Assembly (NCBI GenBank): GCA_945896675.1
Contig: CAMDEM010000009.1
Location: 1-64,000 of the forward strand
DNA from: Cyanobium sp. NIES-981
Lineage (GTDB): Bacteria > Cyanobacteriota > Cyanobacteriia > PCC-6307 > Cyanobiaceae
Length of the DNA: 64,000 nt
Direction of reading: 5' to 3'
Positions 27,315-29,829 of this stretch are shown here, piece by piece. The notes under the pieces are model-generated. The model had not been told where the DNA came from and did no database searches. It saw only the letters and a list, made by a program, of their open reading frames with translations. The position numbers and the translations under genes are program-made. The stretch's first letter is position 1, and every line of letters starts with the position of its first letter.

Positions 27315-28723
27315 TGGATTCGCTTTTGAACGCGAAGGTTTTAAACGGGAACCCCTCCAAGAAAGGCCAATCCGAGGAAGGCGAACCCAGGGACGACCCC
27401 TTCAGGTCGGTTCGTCTGAAACGTCCCCTGGCCACCCTGCTGCAACTGGTTTTGTTTGGTGGGGCCGTTGGATTGGCCTGCCTGCCCCTCAACATTGTTG
27501 ATAGCTGGCAGGCCCAGCTCCTGCATGGTTTGCCCGGTTTCAACAATCAGGCGTGGCACCTGGGCAATCTGGGCCAAGCGCTGGCGCCCCTGGTGGTGAT
27601 GCCCGTGTTGCTGTGGCTCCAGGCAGGGCGCTTCAAAGCCGGTGCCGGCTCAGGCATCCCCCAAACTATCGAGAGCATTGAGGAGCCAGGTTCAGCCAGC
27701 ACCTTGCTTGGCTTGAAACCCACGATCCAGAGGCTCTCGCTTTGGACCGCTGCCAGCCTTGCCCTGATGCCCCTGGGGCGGGAAGGTCCCGTGGTGCAAG
27801 TGGGCGCCTCCGTGGCCCTTGCCCTCAAGAAACGCTTCCCACGGCTACTGGCCGGGTTCAGCGAAACCAACCTGGTGACCATTGGCGCCGGAGCAGGCCT
27901 CGCTGGCGGCTTCAACAGCCCGTTGATGGGCACGGTTTTTGTGTTTGAAGAGCTGACAGGGCGCTTCCTGCCCTCGGTTGTGTGGCCGGCCCTGGTGGTT
28001 TGCCTCACAGCCGCGCTGGTCAGCAACCTCACTGGCACGCCGGTGTTCATCCTGGGCCTGATCCAGGACCCGGAAGCCGAGTGGGTGCAGCTGGTCCTTG
28101 CCCTTCCCGTGGGCTTGGTGGGGGGCTGGCTTGGCGGATTGTTTGCCCGGCTTCTGTTTTCAGTAACGGCTTGGCTGCGGCCCAAGGTCAACCGCAGGCC
28201 CCTGGCCTGGGGGGTCGCCCTTGGGGGCTGCCTGGCCCTGATTGCGGTGCTGAGCGGTGGCCTCAGTGGCGGCGATGGCGAAGCTCTGATGGGCCACCTG
28301 CTGGGCGATGGCGGAAGCCTGCCCGTACCCGGATCTCCGATCGATTTGATCGGCTGGTTGCTCCTGCTTGCCGCCAGGCTCGTGGCTCCGGTGCTGGCCC
28401 TCGGCGCCGGAATTCCGGGGGGGCTGATCGATCCGGCCTTTGCCATTGGCGCCGTCTTTGGCAGTGGCAGCCTTGAGTTGCTGGGGGGCAATGGTCAATT
28501 GGGATTGGCCCTGGGTATGGCGGCCGGCCTAGCCGGCGCCACCCAACTGCCCTTGATGACGATTCTGTTTTCCCTGCGGATGATGGGCGATCAGCAATGG
28601 CTCTTCGGCATGCTGCTGAGCGCCGTGATTGGAGCTTTGATTGGGCGCAAAATCCAGCCAGAGCCCATCTATCACGCCCTTTGGGGTCTCGGCAAAAAGC
28701 CAATCAAAAGCCCGGTACCCTAG
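27314..28723 (+). CDS. clcA: CLC-family chloride channel / exchanger
   Basis: GAGSGIPQ-like, LGREGPVVQVGASV, AAGLAGATQLPL motifs; start at ATG 27314. Confidence 0.92.
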   Translation: MDSLLNAKVLNGNPSKKGQSEEGEPRDDPFRSVRLKRPLATLLQLVLFGGAVGLACLPLNIVDSWQAQLLHGLPGFNNQAWHLGNLGQALAPLVVMPVLLWLQAGRFKAGAGSGIPQTIESIEEPGSASTLLGLKPTIQRLSLWTAASLALMPLGREGPVVQVGASVALALKKRFPRLLAGFSETNLVTIGAGAGLAGGFNSPLMGTVFVFEELTGRFLPSVVWPALVVCLTAALVSNLTGTPVFILGLIQDPEAEWVQLVLALPVGLVGGWLGGLFARLLFSVTAWLRPKVNRRPLAWGVALGGCLALIAVLSGGLSGGDGEALMGHLLGDGGSLPVPGSPIDLIGWLLLLAARLVAPVLALGAGIPGGLIDPAFAIGAVFGSGSLELLGGNGQLGLALGMAAGLAGATQLPLMTILFSLRMMGDQQWLFGMLLSAVIGALIGRKIQPEPIYHALWGLGKKPIKSPVP

Positions 28724-28738
28724 GGGGATACCGGGCTT
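28705..28738 (-). terminator. Hairpin terminator for psb30 overlapping the clcA stop codon
   Basis: Perfect 10-bp inverted repeat AAGCCCGGTA / TACCGGGCTT (28708-28717 / 28729-28738); minus-strand reading gives stem followed by TTTT. Confidence 0.6.
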
Positions 28739-28769: not shown

Positions 28770-28877
28770 CTAGAGAGCTCCGCGGCGGTAGAAGAGCAGG
28801 AAGATCACGGCTGGGCCGGCCAAGGTAATCAGGGCAAGGGCCGCGAAGTTGGCAATCAGATGAATGTCGATGCCCAT
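28770..28877 (-). CDS. psb30: Photosystem II protein Psb30 (Ycf12)
   Basis: [35 protein letters not shown]; the longer ORF to 29057 contains non-coding tandem repeats; alternative start at 28904. Confidence 0.92.
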
Positions 28878-28948
28878 GGGGTTCCGGTTCGTTAGCGCTG
28901 CCATCAGGATAGAAGCCCCGCCGGGCAGTCCACAAGGGTCTGCTTGCC

Positions 28949-29020
28949 ACTGTGATGCCTTGTCACGTCGTAACTGTGATGGCTTGTCACGTCGTAACTG
29001 TGATGGCTTGTCACAGCCAA
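28949..29020. repeat. 24-bp tandem repeat x3 (last copy diverging at its 3' end), each unit with TGTGA-N7-TCAC palindrome
   Basis: actgtgatgccttgtcacgtcgta / actgtgatggcttgtcacgtcgta / actgtgatggcttgtcacagccaa at 28949, 28973, 28997. Confidence 0.9.
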
Positions 29021-29062
29021 CCTTGTGTTGTGACTGAATAGACGGAAGCCGAAGCAACTGGG

Positions 29063-29437
29063 ATGGGTTGTACCGAAGAGCGATGGCAATGCATCAGCCA
29101 GTGCGGCTCGTGCTGCCGATTGGATCCGGGCGAACGCCAAGACGCCCTTGGGGCCCTAAACGAATCCCAGCGGGAGCTCTACCTCTCGATGGTGGGAGCC
29201 GATGGCTGGTGCATCCACTTCAACAGCGGTTCCCGCAGCTGCCGGATTTACGAAACCCGCCCCGATTTCTGCCGCGTCAGCAATTTGATGAATCTCTTTG
29301 GCGAGAGCCAAGACGGGGATCCAGGCGTTGCCGATCGCTTCGCCATTGCCTGCTGCAAGCAACAAATTCGCAGCGAGCATGGCGGCCGTGGCAGGGTGAT
29401 GCGCCGATTCCTCAGGGCGATCCGCCGGCAGCCATGA
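29063..29437 (+). CDS. YkgJ family cysteine-cluster protein
   Basis: [11 protein letters not shown] ... [12 protein letters not shown] cysteine pattern. Confidence 0.85.
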
Positions 29438-29829
29438 GTCCCGATCCCGAAGCCAACCAAAGCCAAGAGCCTGGCCAACCAGACAAGGGGGGGGGGGCGA
29501 TCCCGGAGAACGGATCGGCCCCCGCCTGGGGCGTGGCCTTCATCACCACCTTCACCACGGTCTTTTTGGCTGAATTGGGCGACAAGACCCAACTGGCCGC
29601 CCTGTTGCTTTCGGCCCAGTCCGGCAAGCCTGGGGTGGTGTTCCTTGGGGCCTCCCTGGCCCTGATCTGCTCCAGCTTGGTTGGTGTTCTGCTGGGCCGG
29701 TGGCTCTCCAAACTGATGCCCCCCCAACAACTGGAACGGTTGGCCGGGATCTTGATGGTGGCCCTAGGCCTCTGGCTGGGACGGCAGGCGGTCGTGGCCC
29801 TAGCTCCCGAATCCCTTCCCCTGACTTGA
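29434..29829 (+). CDS. TMEM165/GDT1 family half-size transporter (first copy)
   Basis: FLAELGDKTQLAALLL signature; single GDT1 repeat; ATGA overlap with upstream gene. Confidence 0.88.
   Translation: MSPDPEANQSQEPGQPDKGGGAIPENGSAPAWGVAFITTFTTVFLAELGDKTQLAALLLSAQSGKPGVVFLGASLALICSSLVGVLLGRWLSKLMPPQQLERLAGILMVALGLWLGRQAVVALAPESLPLT

Follow-up and report, generated by a model that had tools for sequence, protein, structure and literature searches.

The window, a 64-kb stretch of DNA from contig 9 of the picocyanobacterial genome G000 (1.97 Mb), contains the photosystem II gene psb30 (ycf12) on the minus strand, opposite a ykgJ-GDT1-GDT1 cluster on the plus strand (from 29063). Pfam confirms these genes (Table 1). 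The divergent layout given in an earlier note on this DNA was correct, although the intergenic region is 185 bp (28877 to 29063) rather than about 160 bp. The ykgJ stop codon and the GDT1 start codon overlap as ATGA (29434-29437), which suggests translational coupling of ykgJ-GDT1-GDT1. On the other side, a 13-bp inverted repeat (AAGCCCGGTACCC/GGATACCGGGCTT, 28708-28738) lies between psb30 and a convergent ClC channel gene and is likely to be a terminator shared by the two.

The intergenic region carries an array of three 24-bp copies at 28949-29020 (ACTGTGATGCCTTGTCACGTCGTA, ACTGTGATGGCTTGTCACGTCGTA and ACTGTGATGGCTTGTCACAGCCAA). As the earlier note had reported, TGTGA-N7-TCAC can be read directly in every one of the three, and the inverted repeat CTGTGA-TGGCTTG-TCACAG in copy 3 is exact in both arms over 19 bp. 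The array is the top-scoring tandem repeat of the window (Tandem Repeats Finder; period 24, 2.8 copies, 97% match, score 125), and its 24-mer gave no matches at ≤ 3 mismatches across 100 shuffles. Copy 3 is only 79% identical to copy 1 over the 24-mer because the sequence departs after TCAC. In the species group of the window, the start of ykgJ (CTGGGATGGGTTGTACC) looks like the relic of a further copy; the comparison is with genome G006, whose one copy is an intact palindrome in the corresponding place, with the ykgJ ATG inside it.

Table 1. Features of the psb30-ykgJ intergenic region and its flanks (positions in the window)
Feature	Position	Strand	Remarks
psb30 (ycf12), photosystem II subunit, 35 aa	28770..28877	-	Pfam PF05969
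Predicted psb30 -10 hexamer, TATCCT	28906..28911	-	39 bp from copy 1
Copy 1, psb30-proximal	28949..28972		Core TGTGATGCCTTGTCACG at 28951-28967; centre about -60 of psb30
Copy 2	28973..28996		Core at 28975-28991; centre about -84 of psb30
Copy 3	28997..29020		Perfect 19-bp palindrome CTGTGATGGCTTGTCACAG at 28998-29016; centre about -108 of psb30
Probable relic of a fourth copy, CTGGGATGGGTTGTACC	29057..29075		Overlaps ykgJ start codon
ykgJ-type CxxCxxCC protein	29063..29437	+	Pfam PF03692

The psb30-ykgJ region was gathered from relatives, with genera counted by their g labels. This comparison, proposed in the earlier note, showed that the palindrome is kept upstream of psb30, mostly as a lone copy: CTGTGAYGGCTTGTCACAG, whose spacer is also conserved, was found once in this place in approximately 27 genera of the family, and nearly all relatives carry one copy. 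Positions G2, T3, A5, G12, T13 and A15 are invariant over 81 distinct sites, and the N7 spacer is present in all array copies and in all relatives in which the site is conserved. Several genomes of genus g7, which is without ykgJ, have TGTAACACGGTTTTACA at the position of the psb30 palindrome, 37 bp from TANNNT (counted by hand). This site reads TGTAA-N7-TTACA, both half-sites having been altered together. In the Prochlorococcus-like genera g9, g12 and g26 (genomes of 1.6 to 1.8 Mb) other sequences occupy the position of the palindrome. A different conserved dyad, TGTAC[TC][GA]ATACGTTACA, lies in the psb30-ykgJ gap of the HL-Prochlorococcus-like g12 (L176-L184), about 23 bp from a candidate psb30 -10 hexamer, TAGTAT. 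The palindrome was not found in cyanobacteria outside the family that keep psb30 next to ykgJ; for example, psb30 is divergent from ykgJ and the palindrome is absent in L024-L027 (Vasconcelosia, Halomicronema, Leptolyngbya and a MAG). The gene pairing therefore predates the site.

The position of the palindrome relative to psb30 is nearly fixed. Reading the plus strand as ANNNTA and counting a gap of 38, 39 or 40 bp up to TGTGA, a TANNNT hexamer on the psb30 strand was found at this distance in 110 of the 111 regions, against 2.5 expected from shuffled flanks; as the regions are related by descent, the 110 are not independent events. Pairwise identity was 0.30 in the 30 bp between this hexamer and the palindrome, compared with 0.85 in the palindrome. 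If TANNNT is taken as the -10 hexamer, the midpoint of the palindrome falls at -59 to -61 of psb30; in the window, the predicted 5' leader of psb30 is approximately 22 nt. At the -35 position the regions have no conserved columns, and no sigma-70 match was found. Two features of class I activator-dependent promoters were found: a weak or absent -35 element, and a site that keeps a constant distance from the -10 hexamer and is centred close to -60, as reckoned from the predicted transcription start.

We consider it likely that the palindrome is an operator of the psb30 promoter, served by a dimeric activator from a class I position, and that the extra copies in the window have been amplified from it. 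Such an activator would bind the palindrome centred near -60 of the predicted psb30 start and, from this class I position, would recruit RNA polymerase to an intrinsically weak promoter, the outcome being strong or regulated transcription of psb30. The transcription start of psb30 (Ycf12) was among the most active in Synechococcus CC9605 in situ, in the sea (PMC5069720), which fits an activated promoter. A repressor could act at the -60 site instead of an activator.

Control of the ykgJ-GDT1 side, which the earlier note had placed alongside that of psb30, did not emerge from the comparison. Four g13 genomes carry psb30 and ykgJ on separate contigs, and there the palindrome is found with psb30, at the same spacing. 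The gene upstream of psb30 in g13 runs co-directionally, so no divergent transcript is expected there. Furthermore, the palindrome is absent from ykgJ loci without psb30, and its distance to ykgJ ranges from -13 to 232 bp. From the fixed gap to the -10 hexamer, the variable distance to ykgJ and the linkage in g13, it follows that the palindrome is an element of the psb30 promoter, and ykgJ is probably a divergent neighbour rather than its target. A shared operator, also or mainly repressing ykgJ-GDT1-GDT1 and so linking the assembly of photosystem II with the transport of manganese, is unlikely. Although the palindrome lies 10 to 40 bp from the ykgJ start, or overlaps it, in many genomes, and GDT1 proteins are known from the literature to carry manganese, a ykgJ operator is hard to reconcile with such a variable distance, or with a site that is kept by psb30 without ykgJ and missing from ykgJ without psb30. 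TTGTCA within the palindrome was also considered as a -35 element of ykgJ, but was rejected as there is no conserved -10 sequence about 17 bp downstream.

The palindrome might alternatively be read as RNA, with the ykgJ transcript forming a hairpin, CUGUGAY-GGCUU-GUCACAG, in its leader. Asymmetric pairs on the plus strand are mostly G.U at the seven inner pairs (73 versus 6 of the reverse kind, counts that ignore the shared ancestry of the sites). However, the same G.U pattern is explained by a protein that contacts the two half-sites asymmetrically, the promoter-proximal one being held more strictly. The constant gap to the -10 hexamer of psb30, the presence of the palindrome in g13, where there is no divergent gene, and the invariance of G12, even though A would also pair with U, all speak against a hairpin. 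In addition, there was no Rfam match up to E = 1 and folding was no better than that of shuffled sequences (z -0.41). A hairpin is thus a distinctly poor candidate, even beside the shared operator.

Genome searches for sites with an N7 spacer, of the kind suggested in the earlier note, returned essentially the psb30 locus alone. All 16 congeners have a site at ≤ 2 mismatches at the psb30 locus and very few matches elsewhere, and in 120 genomes of the order 57 of the 58 matches at ≤ 1 mismatch were at this locus. A relaxed search for the core gave scattered extra matches, fewer than the reversed control. No recurrent second site, as would be expected of a regulon, was found in the 16 congeners or the 120 genomes of the order, and the palindrome is found in essentially one place per genome. 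Neither phage records nor viral contigs gave a match, and a phage or mobile origin was rejected.

It is very improbable that the palindrome is a canonical cAMP-CRP (SyCRP1-like) site. It resembles such sites (TGTGA-N6-TCACA) in its TGTGA/TCACA half-sites and in its class I position, some 60 bp ahead of the start. It differs in having a conserved, asymmetric spacer (YGGCTTG) of 7 rather than 6 nt, as the earlier note had pointed out, a spacing that fits no known CRP site. It also differs in occurring essentially once per genome, and in being present in marine-type genomes while marine relatives are reported to be without a crp gene (PMC2633013). From G000, which is 88.5% complete, three CRP-family proteins were recovered; all have NtcA-type RVTxTR helices, and none has the RExxxR recognition helix of CRP. 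The N7 spacing, these helices and the marine relatives without crp make binding by cAMP-CRP unlikely, and the earlier proposal of CRP or SyCRP1 as the binder is further weakened by N7 matches that are almost exclusive to the psb30 locus.

Two other protein families have features that would suit the site, as judged from its sequence. The first is the CRP/NtcA family, a paralogue of which would suit the TGTGA half-site. NtcA sites have the form GTA-N8-TAC and are usually centred near -41.5. The psb30 palindrome has a related half-site, to which the g7 variant TGTAA-N7-TTACA comes closer, and NtcA is present in all genomes sampled. Unlike an NtcA site, however, the palindrome reads GTG-N9-CAC, with one additional base of spacing and a different position, and GTA-N8-TAC does not occur in it, GTGA being invariant or nearly so. 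A CRP/NtcA-family paralogue of about 200 residues with a near-invariant helix, GxTRVTxTRLIS, is encoded on contig 13 of G000 (L306), and proteins of this kind were recovered from nearly all sampled genomes of the family, G030 being the exception.

The second family is LysR. An odd-centred GTGA-N7-TCAC dyad has the T-N11-A geometry with which a LysR-type protein would be compatible. T3 and A15, which form T-N11-A, are invariant over the 81 distinct sites, and the upstream activating position is also like that of LysR-type sites. One RbcR-type LysR protein is conserved in nearly every genome. The motif of RbcR is ATTAR-N5-YTAAT (PMC13249358), from which the palindrome differs in its half-sites (GTGA/TCAC versus ATTA/TAAT) and in occurring essentially once per genome; RbcR is also present where the palindrome is absent. 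Among the genomes sampled, no candidate from the LysR or CRP-family genes tracks the presence of the site. A parallel by description, rather than by sequence, is the conserved imperfect palindrome upstream of the very active Yfr103 promoter of marine picocyanobacteria, although this lies nearer to the promoter, at -29 to -58 (PMC5069720).

Within the window, copy 1 is in the conserved, ancestral position of the putative operator, and of the three copies only this proximal one occupies the ancestral place near -60. G000 shares the three-copy array, at exact 24-bp spacing, with its close relative G012, while G011 has at least two copies up to the end of its contig. G013 retains an intact proximal copy, the other two having decayed, and G004 has a partial duplication that is independent of the array in the window. 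That the array is a simple slippage repeat without function is scarcely credible, since, in spite of the restriction of copies 2 and 3 to close relatives, their decay in G013 and the independent event in G004, the duplicated unit is conserved family-wide as a single copy at a fixed place; slippage is therefore tenable for the extra copies only and is refuted for the proximal one. The earlier view of the palindrome as a putative regulator-binding site upstream of psb30 is accordingly upheld, with conservation in relatives, over that of an accident of slippage. The same cannot be said of the phased array for cooperative binding envisaged in that note: nearly all relatives are single-copy, the three-copy form is restricted to close relatives of the window, and 24 bp corresponds to 2.29 helical turns (at 10.5 bp per turn), so successive copies are not on one face of the helix. 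Under the preferred reading, an activated psb30 operator, the ancestral site would have been amplified in this species group into three 24-bp copies and a relic, and the extra copies may raise the local concentration of activator or be neutral.

In the open-access literature searched, no factor acting upstream of psb30 and no N7 site of this kind was found to be described; on such a factor, nothing emerged beyond PMC5069720. The psb30 palindrome is best described as a putative operator of the class I type whose sequence forms a new class. More tentatively, and with somewhat less than even confidence, it may belong to a picocyanobacterial system dedicated to psb30, in which an undescribed regulator acts through an odd-centred TGTGA-N7-TCACA at essentially one promoter in some 27 genera, with both half-sites changed in one genus (TGTAA-N7-TTACA) and the site absent in streamlined Prochlorococcus-like lineages. 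Picocyanobacteria, which have few regulators, account for a large part of the photosynthesis in seas and lakes, and here a sharp, family-wide and essentially single-locus putative regulatory site lies on a photosystem II gene. As its target sequence and position are defined, pull-down of the regulator and a search for its signal are possible. The repeat in the window is explained as an amplified putative operator and not as a peculiarity confined to a single genome.

The first GDT1 gene carries, close to its 5' end, a run of 11 G residues (29487-29497), the sole homopolymer of ≥ 9 in the window. The frame is open as written, and the relatives L002 and L004 are without such a run. Either phase variation of this tract or an error in the assembly could account for it.
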